From a virus: DNA of 41,104 bases. A model generated the notes under the pieces. The model ran no database searches. It was not told the DNA's origin and saw only the letters and a list, made by a program, of their open reading frames with translations. The position numbers and the translations under genes were made by a program. Of this stretch, positions 8,254-28,416 are shown one piece after another (the first letter of the stretch is position 1; the number at the start of each line of letters is the position of its first letter). The stretch lies in IMG/VR virus record IMGVR_UViG_3300035183_000528, positions 1 through 41,104 of that record. One strand, 5' to 3'.

Positions 8254-8269
8254 ATTTTAATGTGCCAAC

Positions 8270-8404
8270 GGACACGATTTTTCTTTTTTGCCGTCTCCGC
8301 TTGTAACCGCAAGGCGACGGCGAGGCTACGGGCTTTCAGGGCATTTGCTTTTTTTGATACCGGGACGCCGTAGCTAGTCCATCTTAGCCGTCAGGCTAGT
8401 GTCC
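8270..8404 (-). ncRNA. Three-hairpin junction RNA, possible riboswitch-like 5' leader
   Basis: GGACAC (8270-8275) pairs with GTGTCC (8399-8404). Inside this closing helix are TAGCC-GTCA-GGCTA (8385-8398), GCTACGG/CCGTAGC (8325-8331 with 8368-8374), and GCCGTC/GACGGC (8290-8295 with 8316-8321) carrying an inner CTTG/CAAG stem. The block is GC-rich within AT-rich DNA. A sigma70 promoter at 8450-8477 points through it on the - strand towards the gene at 8253. The GUGUC of the closing helix can instead form a GUGUC-CGUU-GGCAC hairpin (8262-8275) just before the start codon: a possible on/off switch. Confidence 0.55.
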
Positions 8405-8449
8405 TAATTACTACGCAAGCCGCCCCAGTTATCAACACTTTATAACTCT

Positions 8450-8477
8450 ATTATATTCTTTTTAATACCTGTGTCAA
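8450..8477 (-). promoter_or_regulatory. Sigma70 promoter for the structured RNA and downstream gene
   Basis: On the - strand: TTGACA (8477-8472), 16-base spacer, TATAAT (8455-8450). Both boxes are perfect. The expected start near 8443 lies about 40 bases before the closing helix of the structured RNA. Confidence 0.72.
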
Positions 8478-8484
8478 GTCTAGT

Positions 8485-8530
8485 TATTCACAACCAGCCG
8501 TGAATAGAAATAACCGCCGGCAGGCGTTAT
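8485..8530 (-). terminator. Two adjacent hairpins, probable terminator upstream of the promoter
   Basis: TATTCAC/GTGAATA (8485-8491 with 8500-8506) is a perfect 7-bp hairpin. ATAACCGCC/GGCGTTAT (8510-8518 with 8523-8530) forms a second one with one bulge. On the - strand the GC-rich hairpin is followed by TTTCTATT, which would stop transcripts from the 66-residue gene (8795-8995) before the next promoter. Confidence 0.45.
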
Positions 8531-8794
8531 TATATAACCATGTAATTATATAATTATATCAGATTAGTTAATTCTATAGTTATTTATTACTTTATAATTA
8601 TACACAATAACCAGACTATAATATATTGAAGAGGTACCGACGGGGTTAATCCTTCCCTTCCCTTCCGTTCCGTTATCTTCCGTTACGTTACGTGTTAATT
8701 TAATTATATTATATTACATATAATTTATCCGGTTATAGATTTTGACATACGGATAGTTTTTTTTAAGAAAAGGAGAAGGCGAGGGCAGTCCCCT
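8531..8794. other. AT-rich, iteron-like stretch; candidate replication origin or control region
   Basis: There is no gene here. 8531-8640 is almost pure A/T with repeated ATTATAT words. 8651-8695 is a run of short direct repeats: CTTCC three times, then TTCCGTT variants and ACGTT twice. Its complement GGAAGGGAAGGGAAGG could form a two-tier G-quadruplex. 8696-8730 is again A/T only. Repeats beside an easily melted stretch, between oppositely directed gene blocks, is the usual look of an origin or a control region. Confidence 0.35.
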
Positions 8795-8995
8795 CTAAAT
8801 TGGCAAAGACTCTTGAATTTCTGATTTATTTATCAAGGATTTATCAACTTTCTTATCAATTTTCTTCCTTATTCCACATTTTGTACATAGTTCGCCGACA
8901 ATAACTTTATCATCTTCAACTACTATTTGTTTTGTATGTCCTGTATATTTTCCGTTTACTATACATGGAATTACTTTTACCTGATAATAAGCCAT
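8795..8995 (-). CDS. Small CxxC protein (66 aa)
   Basis: The start ATG at 8995 (MAYYQVKVIPCIVNGKYTGH) is preferred over an upstream in-frame start at 9142, because the upstream part (residues before MAYY) is low-quality sequence crossing a dyad. The protein is beta-rich, then has CTKCG near residues 43-47, and ends with a lysine-rich helix (KIDKKVDKSLINKSEIQ). Together with C11 the CxxC could hold a metal or form a small zinc knuckle. Function unknown. The two hairpins at 8485-8530 may terminate it. Confidence 0.58.
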   Translation of the reverse strand: MAYYQVKVIPCIVNGKYTGHTKQIVVEDDKVIVGELCTKCGIRKKIDKKVDKSLINKSEIQESLPI

Positions 8996-9095
8996 AATTA
9001 AAATAATTAAAATATAATATCCAGGAAGGCGGAGCCAGAAGGAAAGTTCCCCTGCGCTTTTCTTTTCTAAAATCGGGGGCTGTGGATAACTTCTA

Positions 9096-9125
9096 TTGAC
9101 TACATTGTGCGACACAGTGTAGTAT
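9096..9125 (+). promoter_or_regulatory. Possible + strand promoter with an operator-like dyad in its spacer
   Basis: TTGACT (9096-9101), 18 bases, TAGTAT (9120-9125). The dyad 9099-9123, ACTACA-T-TGTG ... CACA-G-TGTAGT, is palindromic over 11 of 12 positions (counting one G-T pair) and covers the spacer and both box edges. This is the classic place for a repressor. Downstream an ATG at 9131 opens a frame, but it runs across the terminator and tRNA-like RNA, so I do not call a gene. Confidence 0.4.
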
Positions 9126-9277
9126 TGGTAATGAGCTCTCAAACTGACTTAATGCCTTCTGTGATTATATCCAGTATAGGCGTCGCCGTCGGATTGAGTC
9201 TCCTGACTTTTAACAAAAGAAAAGAGCTCGCAAGGCAGTCAGGATTTAACCCCTGCACCTTGCTAGGCTTTTTAGCT

Positions 9278-9315
9278 AAAACAAAAACCTTCCTTGCTTG
9301 GGGGGTTTTTGTTTT
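9278..9315 (-). terminator. Intrinsic terminator of the tRNA-like RNA unit
   Basis: AAAACAAAAACC (9278-9289) and GGTTTTTGTTTT (9304-9315) are perfect 12-bp arms around a 14-base loop. It lies directly downstream, on the - strand, of the tRNA-like RNA and may also stop + strand transcripts from 9096-9125. Confidence 0.6.
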
Positions 9316-9316
9316 T

Positions 9317-9421
9317 AACTTAGATAAGCCATGTGGGCCGCTAGGGAGTCGAACCCTAGACAATGTACATTGTACCCTTTCAAACCAGTAGGCCCTGAGA
9401 GGTGAAGACTATATCTTCACC
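9317..9421 (-). ncRNA. tRNA-like RNA with its own promoter and terminator
   Basis: From the promoter at 9428-9455 the expected +1 is the G at 9421. The RNA opens with a perfect hairpin GGTGAAGA-TATAG-TCTTCACC (9401-9421). Next comes GGGCC (9395-9391), pairing with GGCCC (9339-9335) like an acceptor helix, then the 14-base palindrome ACAATGTACATTGT (9360-9373) and a textbook T arm, CTAGGG-TTCGACT-CCCTAG (9341-9359). Between GGGCC and GGCCC there is no D arm and no proper 7-base anticodon loop; the span is 61 bases. It may be a degenerate tRNA, a tRNA mimic or an attachment-site remnant of a host tRNA 3' half. Confidence 0.5.
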
Positions 9422-9427
9422 ATTTTC

Positions 9428-9455
9428 ATTTTAGCAAAATAAAAATTTGAGTCAA
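9428..9455 (-). promoter_or_regulatory. Promoter of the tRNA-like RNA
   Basis: On the - strand: TTGACT (9455-9450), 16-base spacer, TAAAAT (9433-9428). +1 six bases on is G9421, the first base of the hairpin 9401-9421. It is divergent from the terminase promoter at 9490-9518; the two -35 regions are 34 bases apart. Confidence 0.55.
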
Positions 9456-9489
9456 TAGGGACTTGTCAACAATGTCGTACAATTTTTAA

Positions 9490-9518
9490 TTGACAAGACA
9501 ATTTTTTGAATATATTTT
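9490..9518 (+). promoter_or_regulatory. Late-block promoter giving a leaderless terminase mRNA
   Basis: TTGACA (9490-9495), 17-base spacer, TATTTT (9513-9518), seven bases, ATG at 9526. The mRNA should start at or one base before the ATG. The TTG of the -35 box is itself an in-frame start codon, which makes a false longer frame. Confidence 0.72.
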
Positions 9519-9525
9519 AAGATAT

Positions 9526-10044
9526 ATGACCGTTGATGAACTAAGTGAACACGAAGAAGAAATAAAAGAGTTTTGGCTTGAGAACAGGGACTTAAAAAAA
9601 GTCGCCGAACATTTTGGTTTTGCCTGGGGTGGAAAAGAATGGATGTGGTTGGTTAGCCATTATAGAACTTGGAGAAACGAAATTATTGAGGAAGAAGCAA
9701 CCCAAAGGGCCAGCACTCTTACCGACGAAGAAGCAAATAGGCTTTTGGAACTGAGCCGCAAGAGGGCGATTATTATGTTAAGCGAAATACTAAAGCACTA
9801 CGAAGAAAACCCAAGACAACTAAAGAATGTTGACATTAAAGAAGTTTCTCGTCTTTATAGCATAATTAAATCCGCCGAGGAACAGGCTAAAAGAACAGAA
9901 ATAGCTCTTCACAAAGAAAAAAGAGAAACGGTTAAAGATTTTTTGCCATATCAGCGTCTTACCCCCGAACAACTAGAAGTGTTAAAACAAAAACTCGGAA
10001 ATGGAATTAACCAACTTATACAACCAAAATCCGAATCCACGTGA
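9526..10044 (+). CDS. Terminase small subunit-like protein (172 aa)
   Basis: An N-terminal HTH-type region (LKKVAEHFGFAWGGKEWMWL) is followed by a long helix (LSRKRAIIMLSEILKHYEEN) and a charged C-terminus. This fits a small terminase that recognises the packaging site and recruits the ATPase, and the gene lies immediately upstream of the large terminase, overlapping it by 44 bases. The ATG at 9526 is chosen because the frame's earlier TTG at 9490 is the -35 box of the promoter. The assignment rests more on position and fold pattern than on a diagnostic motif. Confidence 0.75.
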   Translation: MTVDELSEHEEEIKEFWLENRDLKKVAEHFGFAWGGKEWMWLVSHYRTWRNEIIEEEATQRASTLTDEEANRLLELSRKRAIIMLSEILKHYEENPRQLKNVDIKEVSRLYSIIKSAEEQAKRTEIALHKEKRETVKDFLPYQRLTPEQLEVLKQKLGNGINQLIQPKSEST

Positions 10045-11482
10045 GCTTAATAGTTTTCTTTTGGCTTTGGGAGAGAATGACCCAGTATTTTTTGCTAAAT
10101 ATTTTCTTGGGCTTCAGCTTAATGATTTTCAAATAAGATATTTAGGGGCTAGCGTAAAAGAGAAACAGCTTTTATTGATTACTTCTAATCAGTGCGGTAA
10201 AACCGTTGGTCTTGCTATTGAACATATCTGGACAAATTTCTATAAAAGAGGTCTTACTGGTGACCCGGAACTAATTGAAAAAACATATTATCAAACTCTT
10301 AATATTTCTCCGGTAAGTCGCCAAGCAAAAGAAGCCTTCCGCTATGTTGATGAAATACTTCATTCGTCGTTTAGCTGGGAAAATAATGGTAAACGTCAGG
10401 TTAACAACTGTTTGATTGAATGGTTTTGGGCTGGGAAGAACGAAACATTGGGCAGGATTGATTTTTCTAATAATTCGGCGATGTTTTGTTTATCAACAGG
10501 CGAGGACCAAGGCGCTGGTTTACAGGGAGCGCAATTCGGCTTAATAACATACGATGAGTGTAATCAAAGCCACCATCTTCAGGAAGAGTTGCCAGCAAGA
10601 GTCTTTTCAAGATGTTCAAAATTGTCGGCGCCGATTCATTTATGCGGAACACCTGATGAGATGGCGAAGTCTCAGCAATACTGGTTCCATCTTTACAACG
10701 AAGCAAAAAATCATATAATTAGGGGGACAAAGGGAACTTGGTTTTTGGTTGAGGGAATTTATGATGAAAATAAGTTTATTCCAGAAGAAATAAGAGAAGA
10801 ATACAAAAAGCGTTTGCTTAGTATATCTCCTACGAAGTATAATCAGGTTATATTAGGAAAATTTGTTGCTTCAGAAAAAAGGATGTTTCCGCCAGAGGTT
10901 ATTGAAGGAATTTGGAATGGAAGACAAGAACCGTCATCTCCTAAACCAGATAGACAATACGCAATTTCCGTAGATTGGGGTGTTGCCGAGGGAGGAGACG
11001 AAACAGTTATGTTGGTGGCTGATGTTACTGACCCACTGAACGCTGAAATAGTTAATCATTATTCTAGAACCGGCGGCGACCCAGTTGAATTGATGGCTAT
11101 GGTATCTTTTTTGCGGCAGGAGTATAATGATGCTGACTGTATCCTTGATACCGCTTCTATGGGTGGAGAAATGTTTAGAAAGATGCTATCTGCCCTAAAA
11201 CCAATATCCTTTGGGGCAGAACACAAGACCAATGCTCTTATTTATACCCAAATGAGATTACGTAATAATATAAGAAAAGATATGTCATTGACGGAATTAT
11301 CAAGCGCTGGTAAAATTAAATCGTATTATCTTCCAAAGCTGGAAGAACAGCTTTCATCGTATAGGGTAGAAGATTCTAAAATACAGCAAGACTGGGTTAT
11401 GGCTCTTATTCAGCTTGTGTGGTATCTTGATAAATACAAAAAACAGAATGTAATTGAGGCCTATCCCCTCCGATTATATTAA
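10001..11482 (+). CDS. terL: Terminase large subunit (493 aa)
   Basis: This is the ATP-driven packaging motor with a C-terminal headful or site-specific nuclease. The ATPase domain has Walker A SNQCGKT (K67) and Walker B LITYDE (D185, E186), followed by the coupling motif region HLCGTPDE. The RNase H-like nuclease domain has SVDWG (D325) and ILDTAS (D383) as metal ligands. The length of 493 is normal. It overlaps the small subunit gene and is followed with no gap by the portal gene (ATG at 11483), the standard packaging order. Confidence 0.94.
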   Translation: MELTNLYNQNPNPRELNSFLLALGENDPVFFAKYFLGLQLNDFQIRYLGASVKEKQLLLITSNQCGKTVGLAIEHIWTNFYKRGLTGDPELIEKTYYQTLNISPVSRQAKEAFRYVDEILHSSFSWENNGKRQVNNCLIEWFWAGKNETLGRIDFSNNSAMFCLSTGEDQGAGLQGAQFGLITYDECNQSHHLQEELPARVFSRCSKLSAPIHLCGTPDEMAKSQQYWFHLYNEAKNHIIRGTKGTWFLVEGIYDENKFIPEEIREEYKKRLLSISPTKYNQVILGKFVASEKRMFPPEVIEGIWNGRQEPSSPKPDRQYAISVDWGVAEGGDETVMLVADVTDPLNAEIVNHYSRTGGDPVELMAMVSFLRQEYNDADCILDTASMGGEMFRKMLSALKPISFGAEHKTNALIYTQMRLRNNIRKDMSLTELSSAGKIKSYYLPKLEEQLSSYRVEDSKIQQDWVMALIQLVWYLDKYKKQNVIEAYPLRLY

Positions 11483-13201
11483 ATGCCAATCTATAATCCG
11501 TTAGTTCAAAAAGACCTTGATGAGAATCAGCTCAATCAGTTTGTAATTGAGCAAACAACCTATCTTGAAAATGATTACTGGGACAGGGTTAATGGAGTAA
11601 ATAATTCTGTCGGGACTGGCAAGAAGATAGCTGGTTATGATACTTTAAGGAAGTTTTTTGAGGGCGACCATTGGTCATTCCTGAAAGAAGACGGGACTCC
11701 AATTAGGGTTTATAATTATTGCCGAACAACGGTTAATAACTATGTTTCGTTTATGGCCAATGAGCCGCCAGAAGACGATGTTCCCCCCAGAGATTCAAAG
11801 GATGATATTGAGGTAGCAAGAGCAGAAGAGGTTGAAAGATTACTTTCTACCATTAAGGAGGATAACCAATTCCCAATTCAATTTGCTGAAGCTGTTCAGA
11901 ATCAATCGCTTTTGGGCGACTGTTTTATTTTTGGTCCATACGTTGAATGGGTTGTGGTTAATGGAAAGAAAAAACCTAGAATTAGATTTAAGAACCTTAA
12001 AAGGGTTGAAAATGTAAGAATTCTTTGGTCGGATGAAGATTTTAATGAGTATGAAGGATTTATTTTGTATTATAGGGTTTCTGTTAAGCAGGCGGAAAAG
12101 ATTTATGCCGAGCAGATGAAGAAGAGAGGAATATCACACCTTTCTAGTGATGAGCCAACCAAATACCAAAAGCCAACCCAATATCCTATGCTTACTGTTA
12201 AGATTTATTGGGATGATACCTATATGCTGGCGACAATTAACGATAGGCCTATTGACTTTGTTAAACATAATTGGGGATTTGTTCCAGGTATCTTTGTAAA
12301 AAACCTTCCACATCCAACACGCCCTTGGGGTGTTTCAGATATTGAAGACATATTAGATGCCCAAGTTGAATATAACGAAACCGCCTGTGAGACAAGGGGT
12401 AAAATTAAGCAGGTTGCCATTCCCCATGTGTTCTATTCTGGAGAGGGGGCACCCATACAGTACAATGCTGGTAATGCACAGATGATTAAAATAGGGCCAG
12501 AGGACAAAATTTATCCAGACCCAATGGGACAATCAACGGCTCCGTTTGATACTTATCTTGCTTCAAGAAAAGAGGACATTCATCAGCTTTCAATGATTTC
12601 AGAGATATTTTATGGTGGTGCAATGACCGCTAGGGCTACCGGTAGAGCGTTATCTGTTTTAATGCAGGGGGTGAATAACAAGGTTAAGATGAAGCAACAA
12701 TATTGGGAGGTTGCCCTCAAGAAACTTAATGCTAACATTTTACGATTGATTGAGCTTTATGTTCCAAACGGCAAGAAGTTAATTCAGGGATACTATGTTA
12801 CCGATGTCTTCTTCCCATCAATTTTAATCAGGAATGTTACGGAAGAAATAAACAAATTCAATATGAAATTACAATCACAATATACTACAATGAAGAATCT
12901 TGGTATTCCTTCTCCAAAAGAGGAGCAGAAGCTTATGAAAAGAGAGTGGAATGATATTGATTTGGCGATAGAAATTTCTAGAAGCCCACAGTTAAGAATG
13001 CAGCTCCAACAGTTAATCCAGCAACAGATTGAAGCAATTGGAGGAAAACCTCCAACACAAAATCCACAGCTAACAGAGGGCGAAGGTGGAGCTGGGATAA
13101 CCGAAGAAGAATCGTTACCAATGTCAACACCTGGAATGCCGCAACAGGCTCCAATTAGTGGAGCTGGTGCGATAAGCCAGAGAGCATATCGTGGCCGTTG
13201 A
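11483..13201 (+). CDS. Portal protein, P22-type (572 aa)
   Basis: This is the dodecameric portal through which DNA is packed and ejected. Features typical of the P22-like portal family are the N-terminal clip and stem sequence (LRKFFEGDHWSFLKEDG), a long middle with MLTVKIYWDD, an ARATGRALSVLMQGVNNKVK helix, and a Gln-rich C-terminal barrel-like helix (LQQLIQQQIEAIGGKPP). The tail ends GMPQQAPISGAGAISQRAY. A P22-type portal with an SU10-type capsid suggests a short-tailed virion. The ATG is immediately after the terminase stop; the next gene begins inside it. Confidence 0.9.
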   Translation: MPIYNPLVQKDLDENQLNQFVIEQTTYLENDYWDRVNGVNNSVGTGKKIAGYDTLRKFFEGDHWSFLKEDGTPIRVYNYCRTTVNNYVSFMANEPPEDDVPPRDSKDDIEVARAEEVERLLSTIKEDNQFPIQFAEAVQNQSLLGDCFIFGPYVEWVVVNGKKKPRIRFKNLKRVENVRILWSDEDFNEYEGFILYYRVSVKQAEKIYAEQMKKRGISHLSSDEPTKYQKPTQYPMLTVKIYWDDTYMLATINDRPIDFVKHNWGFVPGIFVKNLPHPTRPWGVSDIEDILDAQVEYNETACETRGKIKQVAIPHVFYSGEGAPIQYNAGNAQMIKIGPEDKIYPDPMGQSTAPFDTYLASRKEDIHQLSMISEIFYGGAMTARATGRALSVLMQGVNNKVKMKQQYWEVALKKLNANILRLIELYVPNGKKLIQGYYVTDVFFPSILIRNVTEEINKFNMKLQSQYTTMKNLGIPSPKEEQKLMKREWNDIDLAIEISRSPQLRMQLQQLIQQQIEAIGGKPPTQNPQLTEGEGGAGITEEESLPMSTPGMPQQAPISGAGAISQRAYRGR

Positions 13202-14975
13202 GAGAACAAAAGAATTTGTAATAGATTTAGGAAAAATTGTTCAAGATCGTCTTGATAGTTTTTATAATTCAAGAAAGTCTATTCGAGCAAGACAGGAGTC
13301 TGATTTTCAAAGAAGAATAGTTGACGAAGATTTGTCTTACCAACAGCAACTTGATTATAGAAAACTACAACTAGAAGAAGAAATGTCAAAGGAATATCCA
13401 GATGAGGATTATGTAGATTATCTCAAAACAAGTATAAGCAATCTTAAAAATCTGGTAAGGCAAAGAAAATACAGGGACCAGTATAATGCTTTGCTGGACG
13501 AAATGGTTTCTGGGAGTAAGGGGTTAACAGACCAGATTCAATGGTTGGAGCAGCAACTTCAAAGCAATGATTGGTCTCAAGAAATAAAAGACCAGATTCG
13601 GGAGAGTTTACAATCAGCGAAACAGAGAAAGATGGAAGTAGATAATAAAATAATTCAGGACCAAATTGATTTTTATCAAAAAGACAAAACAATGGATTCT
13701 TTAAATAAGGCCTATGCTCTTGCCCAAGAAGGACTATCAAAAGCAACACTTTCTAACAATGAAGACTTAATTAATCAATATAAGTTAACGATTCAAGCCA
13801 TAAACAAACAAAAAGCTGAAGCTGGAATAGAAGATAAGGTTAATATACTTGTTGGTCAGATTGTGAGTAGAGATAGGTCCAACAACTCGTTGTATAAAAT
13901 TGATTCTATTTCTTCTTATGCCAATTCTGCATTTGATAGTATTCCTGTAACAGTTAATGGCAAGAAATATGCGTCGGAGAGGGATTTTTGGAATCAAACT
14001 CTTGGTTCGTATATTCAGAATGATTTTGTTGATGAATTTGTAAATGAGGAAAAGAATAAATTTTTGTCAGTATATAAGCAAACTGGATTTATTCCACCTT
14101 CTGTAGTTCAGACAATAGTTAGCAATATTAGTAATTTGAAGAGAAGACCAGAGCTTGTTCAATATGGAGCGGTGCTTGATAGAATTGTTTCTGGCGTTCT
14201 TGGTGAACTCGCCAAAACCAAGGTAAATGAAGTAAAAACAAAATACGCTCTTGATAGCGATTCTTCTACAACGCAGGATTTTCAGAACGCCCTTAACGAA
14301 TTAAAATCTTTTCAGACAAGTCTTGGTAACCTTTATTCAATTCAGCCAGATATTTCAAATATAGAAACTGGTTTAGCTGAAAAGAAATCCGGTTTGGTTT
14401 CTTCTATTGTTAGTGCGGCTGGAGAGATAAGAAGAGAAAGGGGGGTAACTGCGGAAGAAGCTATTAGCGAAGCGGCTAAGGGGGCTAGAGAACCTTCTAG
14501 GGAAGAGTTGCTTTCTAAAACTCCAGAAGAGATTGTAGGGAGCTCTGTCAGAACACTATCCTCGAATCCAGCTGATTATTATAAAGTGAGGACTGCTACT
14601 GGTTATGATATTTATCTAAAATCTACCGGAGAAAAGATGAGTGAAAAAGATTTATATCTTGCTCCAAATGCACCAAAACCGAATGTGGAGCTTATTGAAG
14701 ACAGAACTTCTAAGACAACACCCAGTCAAAAAACTTCTACGGAGTCTTTACAAAAATCACCCAGTTCAACAACTACGAAAACGGCGCCAGCCTCTACTCC
14801 AACTGTTTATACTGGACCAAAGAGTGTCCAACTAGGGAAAGAATGGGTTAGAAAGGGTAATGATGTTTATCAAATAATTGGAGGTCAACTTGGGCCAAAG
14901 CTTTCATATGAAGAATTTATATCCGTTTGGAAACCAAAAGGTTTGAATTTGGACATAATTCCTCAATATCAATAA
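13191..14975 (+). CDS. Long coiled-coil virion protein, putative ejection protein (594 aa)
   Basis: The start is a GTG overlapping the portal stop by 11 bases. The chain is dominated by helices and coiled coil (RQESDFQRRIVDEDLSYQQQ; LQSNDWSQEIKDQIRESLQS) with a Ser/Thr/Pro-rich linker near residues 495-530 and a small C-terminal domain (VQLGKEWVRKGNDVYQIIGG). There is no enzyme motif. Its place directly after the portal, ahead of two more large proteins, matches internal ejection proteins of podoviruses, which leave the capsid through the portal. This is inferred from order and architecture. Confidence 0.78.
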   Translation: MAVERTKEFVIDLGKIVQDRLDSFYNSRKSIRARQESDFQRRIVDEDLSYQQQLDYRKLQLEEEMSKEYPDEDYVDYLKTSISNLKNLVRQRKYRDQYNALLDEMVSGSKGLTDQIQWLEQQLQSNDWSQEIKDQIRESLQSAKQRKMEVDNKIIQDQIDFYQKDKTMDSLNKAYALAQEGLSKATLSNNEDLINQYKLTIQAINKQKAEAGIEDKVNILVGQIVSRDRSNNSLYKIDSISSYANSAFDSIPVTVNGKKYASERDFWNQTLGSYIQNDFVDEFVNEEKNKFLSVYKQTGFIPPSVVQTIVSNISNLKRRPELVQYGAVLDRIVSGVLGELAKTKVNEVKTKYALDSDSSTTQDFQNALNELKSFQTSLGNLYSIQPDISNIETGLAEKKSGLVSSIVSAAGEIRRERGVTAEEAISEAAKGAREPSREELLSKTPEEIVGSSVRTLSSNPADYYKVRTATGYDIYLKSTGEKMSEKDLYLAPNAPKPNVELIEDRTSKTTPSQKTSTESLQKSPSSTTTKTAPASTPTVYTGPKSVQLGKEWVRKGNDVYQIIGGQLGPKLSYEEFISVWKPKGLNLDIIPQYQ

Positions 14976-24687: not shown

Positions 24688-27600
24688 ATGCCTTTATATG
24701 TAAAAAAGAACAATGCAAGGGGAGCGGTTCAAGATAATCCACTAACCGCTGGCGCAACTACCCTTAATTTACAATCAGGACAAGGGGCTAACTTCCCCAG
24801 CAGTTTTCCTTATGTAATTACTGTTTGGGATGATGTAAATTATCCATCTCCATCTGATGACCCAAATATGGAGATTATGAGGGTTACTGGAAGGACTGGC
24901 GACACCCTAACAGTTACGAGAGCGGTTGAGGGCACCTCTGCCGTTGAACACGCTCAAGGTTCAAGGGTTGAGATGCTTTTAACTGCTGGTATTTTTAATG
25001 ACCCAACTTATGGAATAGATGCCAATTTACCAACTGGTGCTACAGGTTATACAGGATACACAGGATATACAGGATATACTGGATATACTGGATATACAGG
25101 TCCCGCTGGTAGCGCTGCTGCAACTGGAGCTACAGGATATACAGGATATACAGGATATACTGGATATACTGGATATGCTGGAGATACTGGATATACAGGT
25201 TATACTGGTTATACTGGTTCTACAGGATATACAGGATATACTGGATATACAGGATATACTGGATATACAGGATATACTGGATATACAGGATATACTGGAT
25301 ATACAGGATATACAGGTCCCGCTGGTAGTGCTAGTGCAACTGGTGCTACAGGTTATACGGGTTATACAGGATATACGGGAACTCGATATCCCTGGAAGGG
25401 AGCCTGGATAACCTCAACTAGTTATGATGTTAATGATTGTGTTGAACATAATGGCTCTGGATATGTTTGTGTTGTTGCTCATACTTCTGGTGATTTTGAT
25501 ACAGATTTGGCTAACGGTAAGTGGAACCTGTTGGTTAGTATTGGTCCTACTGGTTACACTGGTTATACTGGTGCTGGAGCCTTTACAGGATATACAGGAT
25601 ATACAGGATATACAGGATATACGGGTTATACAGGTTATACTGGATATACTGGTTACACTGGTTACACTGGTTATACAGGAGCAACTACTGGTGCTACTTG
25701 GGGCTTAATTACTGGAACTCTTTCAAATCAAACCGACCTCCAAGATGCTTTAGATGCTAAAGCAGATGATTCTATCGTTCTTAAAAAAGATGGTTCTGTT
25801 GCTATAACTTCTAACTGGAATGTAGATGGGGCAAATACTTTGTATATTGATAAGACTAATGGGCGAGTCGGCATCGGGACGACGAATCCAGGAACTCTTC
25901 TTACAGTTGGCAATAATACTTTTCAAGTAAATTCTTCTGGCAATCTGGTTAAAATCAATAATGTAACTTATTCTTGGCCCTCAACTCAAGGAGGAGCTAA
26001 TACCGTTTTAACTAATGATGGTTCAGGTAATTTATCTTGGCAAACAGCAGGTGGAGGTGGCGGTGGTATATCAGGTTCAGGAGCATCTGGTCAGGTTACT
26101 TTCTGGACAGGAACAAGCTCTGTTTCGGGAAGTAATAATCTTTTCTGGGACGACACCAACAGCAGATTAGGCATTGGGACGACAAGTCCATCTGAAAAAT
26201 TACACATTGTAGGTAATGTTTTAACGACGGGAACGGGAACTTTTCAATCATCGCCATTAACTATTGGCAATCTTGCTTTATCTCATACGGGATTAACCGC
26301 TTCAAGAACTTTTACTTTTCCTGATGTTTCTGATACTTTAGTTTCTTTAACTGCTACCCAAACATTAACAAATAAAACATTGGGAACTGGTTCTGTTTGG
26401 AATGGCAACGTTATTGGAACTTCTTATGGTGGAACGGGCTTATCTTCAATAGGAACCGCCAATCAGATTTTAGGAGTTAATAGTGGCGCTACGGGATTAG
26501 AATATAAAAATATCGCCTCCCTACTTACAGCGGGAACAGGAATATCAATTACAGGAACAACTAATGCGACAATCACTAATACAGGCGTTATTTCTTTAAA
26601 TTCAGCCACGGGAACATTAACACTTCAAGGAACGGCTAATCAAGTTGACGTCTCTACGAGTGGAACAACTATTACCTTATCAACACCTCAAGATATTCAT
26701 ACTGGAGCATCTCCAACATTTACAGGTCTTACTCTTTCGTCTTTAACTTCTGGTTCGGTCATCTTTGCTGGTTCAGGCGGTGCCCTTTCTCAAGATAACG
26801 CTAATTTCTTCTGGGACAATACTAATAAGCGACTTGGTATTGGTACAATATCGCCGACAAATCCTTTAGATATTCATATCAATTCCAGCCTTCCGCAGAA
26901 CGACTTAATCAGGCTGACACAAGACGGTGCCTTTGCTTCTGCCCCTGTGGGTATAAGCTTCTTTAATTCGGCTGGAAGTATACAAATGGCGAGCATTGAG
27001 GCAGTTCCGGGTGCTTCTTATACAGCTTCTCAATTACGCTTTTTTGTTGCCAATAGTTCAAAAGTAAGAACTCAAAGAATGGTTATTGATGTAAACGGTA
27101 ACGTTGGCATCGGGACGACTGGACCGGGAACATTGCTTACTCTTAGAAAATCAGCGGCTGGCAATGTTTTTGCTATTAGAAATACAGCAGATACTGCTGA
27201 TACCTTCACTATTACTGATGCTGGAGTAGTAAATCTTGGGACTTGGCAGGGAACAGCCATAGGGGTGTCTTTTGGAGGCACTGGCGCTACAACCGCTTCT
27301 GGAGCAAGAACCAATTTGGGAGCGGCGGCAAGCGGTATAAACACCGATATCACTGCTTTACAGGGATTAAATCAGCAAAATGCTATCCAAATCAATCCTT
27401 ACGGAACTGGCGCTGGAAACACTGGAGAGGTTAGATTTTTAGAGCTAGCCGCTAATGGAAGTAACTATGTTGGTTTTAAAGCGCCAGACAATATAGCAAG
27501 TAATGTTATTTGGACTTTACCAAGTTCAGATGGAACTAATGGACAGGTTTTAACGACTAATGGTTCCGGGGTTTTAAGCTGGACAACCGTTTCTGGAGGC

Positions 27601-28416
27601 GGAGGTGGAGGTGGTTATACCACGATACAAGAAGAAGGAACTTCTTTGACGCAAAGAGCGACAATGAATTTTATCGGGTCAGGGCTCACGGCACAAGATG
27701 ATGCTACAAATTCAAGGACAAACATAACCTGGGACAGGTTTCTTGCTGAAAGAAAAGCGCCATTTTATTATACCGACTTTCTTGGACCAGCTGGTGTGGC
27801 AACCGTTGAAGCTGCTTATCCATTTGATTTTGCAGTAATTAGTTCGGGAACAAATGGAAAAATTCCAGGAACATCAAATCACCCCGGTATTTTAAGAATT
27901 TCTTCATCTACGACGGCAAATAGCGGCGGATATGTTTTAACTGATGTTGTTGGTTTTCTAATTGGTGGTGGAGAGGTTTTTGAAATTATTTTTCAACCAT
28001 TGGTATCAGGTAATACTAATACAACTATTCGTATGGGATTTTTAGATACAACAACCTCTACGGATGCTACCGATGGTGTTTATTTTGAATTACCTGCTAA
28101 TTCTTTGGGAATTGTAGGAAAAACAGCAAATAACGGTACACGAACAACATCATCGACTATTGCAACATTAACAGTAACTACTTGGTATAGGTGCAGGATT
28201 GAGATAAATAGCAATGCTACACAAGCCGATTTTTATGTCTATAATGATAGTGGGACATTATTAGGCTCTACAAGTATTACTACCAATATACCAACAGCAA
28301 CGGGTAGAGAAACTGGAGCTGGTTTAGTAGCTACTAATTCTGGAACAACTGCTACGGCATTGGCTCATTTTGATTTTATGGCAGTAGGTTATAATGGTAG
28401 AGAATTGACAAGATAA
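24688..28416 (+). CDS. Long collagen-like tail fibre (1242 aa)
   Basis: The N-terminal module (residues about 10-105; [11 protein letters not shown] ... [19 protein letters not shown]) is shared with the capsid protein. From about 112 to 330 runs a GYT-triplet collagen-like repeat, broken by PAGSA inserts and by one carbohydrate-binding-like unit ([20 protein letters not shown], near 232). Further on are GIGTT-type fibre motifs ([13 protein letters not shown] near 395), [11 protein letters not shown] and several Gly-rich hinges (GGGGGG). The C-terminal about 200 residues form a lectin-like jelly roll ([20 protein letters not shown]). I see no self-cleaving chaperone domain. It should be trimeric and receptor-binding. 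Confidence 0.88.
25045..25380 (+). repeat. Tandem 9-bp repeats coding GYT, first block
   Basis: Near-identical units GGATATACA / GGATATACT (and GGTTATACT variants) run in tandem, coding Gly-Tyr-Thr. Two PAGSA/ASATGA inserts interrupt them at about 25099-25130 and 25315-25350. The nearly uniform codons show recent expansion and would allow slippage in steps of nine bases without frameshift. Confidence 0.9.
25548..25681 (+). repeat. Tandem 9-bp repeats coding GYT, second block
   Basis: A second array after the carbohydrate-binding-like insert, with mixed GGATATACA, GGTTATACT and GGTTACACT units, broken once by GAGAF codons at 25571-25586. The more varied codons suggest that it is older than the first block. 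Confidence 0.85.

Follow-up and report, generated by a model that had tools for sequence, protein, structure and literature searches.

Organization of the locus

The sequence analysed here, referred to as the window, is the whole of a linear IMG/VR virus record of 41,104 bases. Next to its phage DNA-packaging genes, in the intergenic region between early and late genes, lies a small-RNA gene whose minus-strand promoter diverges from a late promoter; the gap that holds the element has promoters at both ends. The initial annotation had described here, on the minus strand, a promoter, a 5′ hairpin, an acceptor-like helix, a palindrome, a T arm and an intrinsic terminator, and every one of these elements was found in place (Table 1). 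The minus-strand transcript is predicted to start at position 9421, and the 5′ hairpin begins at this predicted +1. Read from there, the transcript consists of the hairpin GGTGAAGA-TATAG-TCTTCACC, followed by TCTCA, GGGCC, UA, CU-GGUUUGAA-AG, G, GUAC-AAU-GUAC, AUUGU, CUAGGG-UUCGACU-CCCUAG, C, GGCCC, A, CAU and the terminator hairpin.

We considered whether the minus-strand unit could be the leader of the early operon and set this aside: in the window, L004, L025 and L023, the early minus-strand genes beyond the terminator have strong, consensus promoters of their own, which points to a separate unit. Its independence, which the initial annotation had proposed, is well supported both by these downstream promoters and by the presence of a promoter and a 5′ hairpin at the matching place in four other lineages.

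On the opposite side of the gap, the -10 box of the late promoter is only ~5-8 nt away from the start codon of the gene in the small-terminase position. Late promoters of this type are also present in three of the relatives described below (Table 1), and nearly leaderless late mRNAs thus appear, on sequence grounds, to be conserved among them. Elsewhere in the window, a large putative tail-fibre ORF (24688-28416) contains a long run of Gly-Tyr-Thr repeats (25019-25700).

Table 1. Positions of promoters, RNA elements and RNA loci (window coordinates unless a relative is named)
Feature	Position	Strand	Remarks
σ70 promoter of minus-strand RNA, TTGACT-16-TGcTAAAAT	9428-9455	-	same position in L004, L023, L025, L008
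Minus-strand promoter, L004		-	TTGACT-17-TATAAT
Minus-strand promoter, L008		-	TTGACA-17-TATACT
Minus-strand promoter, L023		-	TTGACA-16-TAAGAT
Minus-strand promoter, L025		-	TTGACA-17-TATAAT
Start-proximal 5′ hairpin, GGTGAAGA..TCTTCACC, 8-9 bp	9401-9421	-	hairpin of different sequence at the same place in relatives
Acceptor-like 5′ strand, GGGCC	9391-9395	-	from sequence and fold
UA linker and reduced D-like stem-loop, CU/AG closing GGUUUGAA with elbow-type GG	9377-9390	-	minimum-energy fold; putative functional reading
14-base palindrome, ACAATGTACATTGT	9360-9373	-	small hairpin in place of the anticodon arm, or DNA operator
T arm, CTAGGG-TTCGACT-CCCTAG	9341-9359	-	
Acceptor-like 3′ strand, GGCCC, with discriminator-like A	9334-9339	-	followed by CAT, not CCA
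Bidirectional terminator hairpin common to both convergent RNAs	9278-9315	both	better paired on plus strand
Promoter of plus-strand RNA, TTGACT-18-TAGTAT	9096-9125	+	23-bp imperfect dyad in spacer; stronger promoters there in L004, L023, L025
Convergent plus-strand RNA	9131-9315	+	start at ~9131
Convergent plus-strand RNA, L004	7631-7872		
Convergent plus-strand RNA, L025	4083-4295		
Late promoter, TTGACA-17-TATTTT, and start of nearly leaderless mRNA of small-terminase-position ORF	9490-9528	+	
Late promoter of the same type, L004	7999-8034		
Late promoter of the same type, L025	4484-4522		
Late promoter of the same type, L008	5439-5477		
Early-gene promoter, window	8477-8450	-	12/12
Early-gene promoters, L004	7085-7057, 7016-6988	-	12/12
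Early-gene promoter, L025	3623-3595	-	10/12
Early-gene promoter, L023	13167-13139	-	11/12
Ackermannviridae RNA loci	L029 597-740, L030 598-750, L031 597-740, L038-L044		PhaxI, MK-13, PC3, Cba120, May and others

The minus-strand RNA contains a tRNA-like body

In the body of the minus-strand RNA, GGGCC (9395-9391) pairs with GGCCC (9339-9335) around a T arm with a 6-bp stem and a TTCGACT loop. In the minimum-energy structure that RNAfold computed for the 65-mer, four elements meet in a junction: the acceptor-like helix of 5 bp, a D-like mini-stem of 2 bp, a small hairpin and the T arm. The mini-stem follows the U-A linker and is made of two pairs (C-G and U-A) that close GGUUUGAA, with GG opening the loop; acceptor helix, T arm and D-loop GG are therefore all part of the same predicted fold. 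The description of the RNA as D-arm-less was slightly too strong, the D region being reduced to this 2-bp stem and GG loop, while the lack of a 7-base anticodon loop is borne out by both the sequence and the fold. A tRNA “elbow” is possible in this model via the reduced D-like loop, as in human mascRNA.

When compared with an ordinary tRNA, the RNA has five acceptor pairs instead of seven (6-67 and 7-66 are unpaired), the 2-bp D-like stem and no 7-base anticodon loop on a 5-bp stem. Its T arm, for which a 5-bp stem and a TTCRANY-type loop would be expected, is canonical, with six pairs and TTCGACT. The body ends in A-CAT, and CCA is not encoded. Half-sites ACAATGT/ACATTGT, a possible set of operators, are located at 9102-9124 (in the spacer of the plus-strand promoter), 9360-9373 and 9469-9482.

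The likeness to a tRNA 3′ half (T arm and acceptor) goes beyond chance. The strict pattern was a T arm of six or more Watson-Crick pairs with a TTCRA loop and a 5-bp outer acceptor (a 5-mer at tRNA spacing after the T arm with its complement 25-80 nt upstream). Shuffled, first-order Markov versions of the window lead one to expect 0.004 occurrences per 41 kb, both strands counted; since the pattern was picked after the element had been seen, this figure is a guide and not a p-value. With an all-GC acceptor, the pattern was found in none of 1500 simulated sequences. The whole transcript region folds better than shuffled sequences (z -4.3), and the 65-nt tRNA-like part alone is unremarkable by the same measure (z -1.4).

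Searches for known RNA families

Neither the window nor the loci scanned in its relatives yielded a tRNA or tmRNA with ARAGORN, which the initial annotation had suggested running. At the gathering threshold, no Rfam family matched in the window, and the tRNA model RF00005 gave no match even at an E-value of 10, with 14 of 14 control genomes positive. An ordinary or degenerate tRNA was thus rejected. When the search was narrowed to the tRNA-like stretch, with E-values up to 10 allowed, the best match was mascRNA-menRNA (RF01684), which covered the full 61 nt at a sub-threshold 16.8 bits (E 0.18; gathering score 42.5 bits), and tRNA-Sec ranked fourth (11.8 bits).

A fragment of tmRNA was also considered, as the 5′ end resembles a tmRNA D loop by eye (CUGGUUUGAAAGGG). 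The alanine identity pair of tmRNA, G3-U70, is completely conserved (PMC3985003). The corresponding pair of the window RNA is G-C, and neither a tmRNA covariance-model match nor an mRNA-like tag region was found in it, so this candidate was rejected too. In viral contigs, a search for a second copy of the motif returned one extra match (in contig L028), which has no T stem, looks like coding sequence and is attributed to chance.

The transcription unit is conserved, and its tRNA-like body is not

No homology to annotated phages was found by intergenic DNA or by terminase protein. Closest to the window is a 5.9-kb contig that carries the same element and matches window positions 8256-14126 at 99.9% identity. 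Four further lineages were identified by their related terminase large subunit (L004/L005, L008/L009, G001 (L023) and G002 (L025)), with 57-63% identity of terminase or portal where measured. The neighbouring early gene also has relatives in L034 and L035, but these phages carry other terminases and are uninformative here.

All four lineages have a strong minus-strand σ70 promoter at the same place, upstream of the gene in the small-terminase position and divergent from the late promoter. Each is followed by a large hairpin near the start (in L023, complete only when a longer piece is folded) and, further on, by another hairpin where the unit converges with the plus strand. Neither a T arm nor any similarity to the RNA body of the window was detected in the bodies of these relatives. 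It thus follows that the transcription unit is conserved in five lineages, including that of the window, and that the tRNA-like body is lineage-specific. Covariation, which had been proposed as a check, is not seen, the body being present only in the window and the 99.9% identical contig.

A convergent plus-strand RNA shares the terminator

The intrinsic terminator was initially assigned to the minus-strand unit. A hairpin with a T tract is indeed present, but it pairs better on the plus strand, where the stem has 16 continuous pairs (-20.2 kcal/mol); on the minus strand, a C/A internal loop interrupts a stem of 14 pairs, behind which lies a U tract (-14.9 kcal/mol). The plus-strand stems contain two G-U pairs in the window and L008 and one each in L004, L005 and L023 (the L025 piece is too short to inform this comparison). 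Since these pairs turn into C-A mismatches on the minus strand and leave weaker stems there, the hairpin is predicted to terminate mainly the plus-strand RNA, with a stem that would work both ways.

The plus-strand RNA contains a hairpin, GCAAGG/CCTTGC (9230-9235/9258-9263), whose loop sequence GTCAGGA (9238-9244) is able to pair with TCCTGAC (9201-9207) in a pseudoknot. By direct reading, the hairpin stem is TAAGGG/CCCTTA in L004 and GAAATCG/CGATTTC in L025, and the pseudoknot helix is TCCATCTG/CAGATGGA in L004. A strand ATTTAAC-M-CCT is common to the plus-strand RNAs compared; no copy of the element could be recognised in L023 or L008. No Rfam family corresponds to this RNA, and its exact pattern retrieved only two matches in viral contigs, both within the present phage group. 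The plus-strand RNA is structured and covarying on this reading, and the comparative case for it is stronger than that for the minus-strand RNA.

A leaderless reading frame (9131-9391, plus strand) begins at the predicted start of this RNA (MSSQTDLMPSVIISSIGVAVGLSLLTF...) and could encode one membrane helix; around the shared motif, the frame is not kept in L025 or L004. Read in reverse, the plus-strand hairpin (9230-9263, minus strand) has GGTTAAATCC, which is T-loop-like without C56, and L004 is similar; this likeness is probably a by-product of the plus-strand structure.

Comparison with other tRNA-like RNAs

The RNAs of human MALAT1 and MENβ, mascRNA and menRNA (RF01684), share with the window RNA a length of ~60 nt, an acceptor helix, a reduced D stem-loop with GG, a small middle hairpin and a canonical T arm. 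The elbow of mascRNA, from which RNase P and RNase Z measure, arises when the two guanines of its reduced D loop dock onto the T loop; these guanines and the T loop are enough for RNase P and tRNase Z to recognise the RNA, which has neither a normal D arm nor a normal anticodon arm (PMC11693755). The window RNA differs in belonging to a bacterial virus and not to the mammalian nucleus, in its sub-threshold score and in having its own promoter and terminator, whereas mascRNA and menRNA are 3′ ends of long RNAs. The tRNA-like domain of tmRNA likewise combines a deformed D arm, a T arm and an acceptor helix with no anticodon arm; unlike tmRNA, the window RNA has no mRNA-like or pseudoknot domain.

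Non-tRNA small RNAs are also encoded by phage T4, in the form of rnaC and rnaD (species 1 and 2), whose roles are unknown (PMC9697503, PMC3014915). Near its 3′ end, rnaC has a perfect tRNA T arm, CCGGG-TTCGAAT-CCCGG. The T4 RNAs are 139 and 119 nt long and lie in a tRNA cluster, whereas the window RNA stands alone as a unit, has no neighbouring tRNAs and has no obvious sequence in common with them beyond the T arm.

A weak BLAST match (E 2-7) led us to an unannotated tRNA-like RNA of ~130 nt that is conserved in 197 phage records, nearly all of them named enterobacterial phages, and Ackermannviridae wherever the taxonomy was read. Its acceptor-like closing helix, GCCGUU/AACGGC, is followed in most members by a CCA triplet one base further on; it has a T arm, TTGGG-TTCGACT-CCC, several further arms and no anticodon arm. 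Of its 38 predicted pairs, 7 show a change on both sides; for the closing and long stems the informative changes come from MK-13, and the alignment of fGh-Ecl02 is poor in the 5′ half. In the three members searched, ARAGORN was silent and no Rfam family matched at threshold. Its long inserted arms set it apart from the window RNA, which it resembles only at the level of the T arm. As judged from these sequences, the Ackermannviridae RNA shows that phages do keep tRNA-like molecules that are not tRNAs.

Interpretation

The explanation that we favour, at a probability of about 0.4, is that a conserved phage ncRNA locus acquired, in one lineage, a mascRNA-like tRNA mimic within its minus-strand RNA. 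This RNA is the predicted product of the minus-strand gene in a convergent small-RNA pair that is conserved; no integrase was detected in the phage. Its body would fold as a minimal mimic of the mascRNA type. Docking of the GG of the reduced D loop on the UUCGA T loop would create a tRNA elbow. Host RNase P might then cut before G9395 and release the 5′ hairpin, tRNase Z might cut after A9334, and the CCA enzyme could add CCA. The product would be a stable RNA of ~62 nt without the 5′ hairpin and the terminator. Having no anticodon, it would not decode; it may serve as a module for stability and processing, or else as a decoy for a host protein that binds tRNA.

The mimic is favoured by a T arm and acceptor that are beyond chance, by the conserved position of the promoter in five lineages and by the 5′ hairpins of the relatives. 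The U-A linker, GG mini-loop and T arm of the predicted fold point the same way, as do the full-length, though sub-threshold, match to mascRNA-menRNA and, by analogy, the precedents of the T4 rnaC T arm and the covarying Ackermannviridae RNA. Against it, the body is missing from every relative, so that selection on it has no comparative support, only five of seven acceptor pairs form, the 65-mer folds no better than z -1.4, CCA is not encoded and the tRNA and tmRNA models are silent.

A relic of a tRNA gene is a rival account that we hold to be plausible but short of probable. A phage tRNA present in, or recombined into, the ncRNA locus would have lost its D stem and anticodon arm, leaving acceptor and T arm recognisable. 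Phages often carry tRNAs in intergenic regions, the body is lineage-specific, two acceptor pairs are broken, the CCA is gone and the 3′ part weakly matches sequence of the tRNA T-arm/acceptor type. Decay, however, would not be expected to remove the whole middle and yet spare a T stem with all six pairs perfect and an acceptor helix of five GC pairs, and promoter and terminator frame the tRNA-like body exactly. Mimic and decayed tRNA had both been offered in the initial annotation and are inseparable here: restriction to one lineage is explained equally well by the relic, and we place the mimic only slightly ahead. Alternatively, the minus-strand RNA may be real and act through its 5′ hairpin or through antisense or transcriptional effects, its T arm and acceptor being chance hairpins in a fast-changing body. 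The RNA bodies are wholly different between relatives, the pattern was chosen post hoc and folding of the 65-mer does not reach significance; yet the strict pattern is rare even over 41 kb, and the intergenic gap around it makes up little of that length, which makes a fortuitous likeness improbable.

Two further explanations place the signal in the DNA. The palindrome ACAATGTACATTGT could be an operator related to the 9102-9124 dyad and to ACAATGT at 9469, with the RNA likeness secondary: the half-site or its complement occurs at three places in ~370 bp, one of them between -35 and -10. We consider this very unlikely, as a relaxed palindrome search was not above chance (2.4 expected, one found) and such dyads are not evident in the promoters of the relatives. 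The T arm and the 3′ strand of the acceptor are classic targets of phage attachment, and the initial annotation had proposed an attP that copies the end of a host tRNA for integration. No tyrosine (PF00589) or serine (PF00239) recombinase was detected in the window and six related records, with positive controls, and the 26-nt T-arm/acceptor end had no exact match, to a host tRNA or otherwise, in a collection of 85k genomes. A copied tRNA end would, moreover, leave the pairing 5′ acceptor strand unexplained. Because the record may be incomplete, the lack of an integrase lowers this idea without removing it; we regard it as the least likely of all.

Taken as a whole, the initial interpretation is partly supported. 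The minimal tRNA mimic may further be read as an RNA of ~62 nt that uses the host enzymes of tRNA maturation or titrates a protein that binds tRNA. It would then be the counterpart of mascRNA in a bacterial virus and, among phage tRNA-like RNAs, one of several that evolved independently; we put this fuller version forward as doubtful. Ever since T4 rnaC and rnaD, phages have been known to have RNAs that resemble parts of tRNA and are unable to decode, and these are still without a function. A natural RNA of 62 nt with its own promoter would be about the smallest on which recognition by RNase P could be tested. Together with the covarying Ackermannviridae RNA, the window RNA suggests that tRNA mimicry recurs in phages and escapes both tRNA finders and Rfam.
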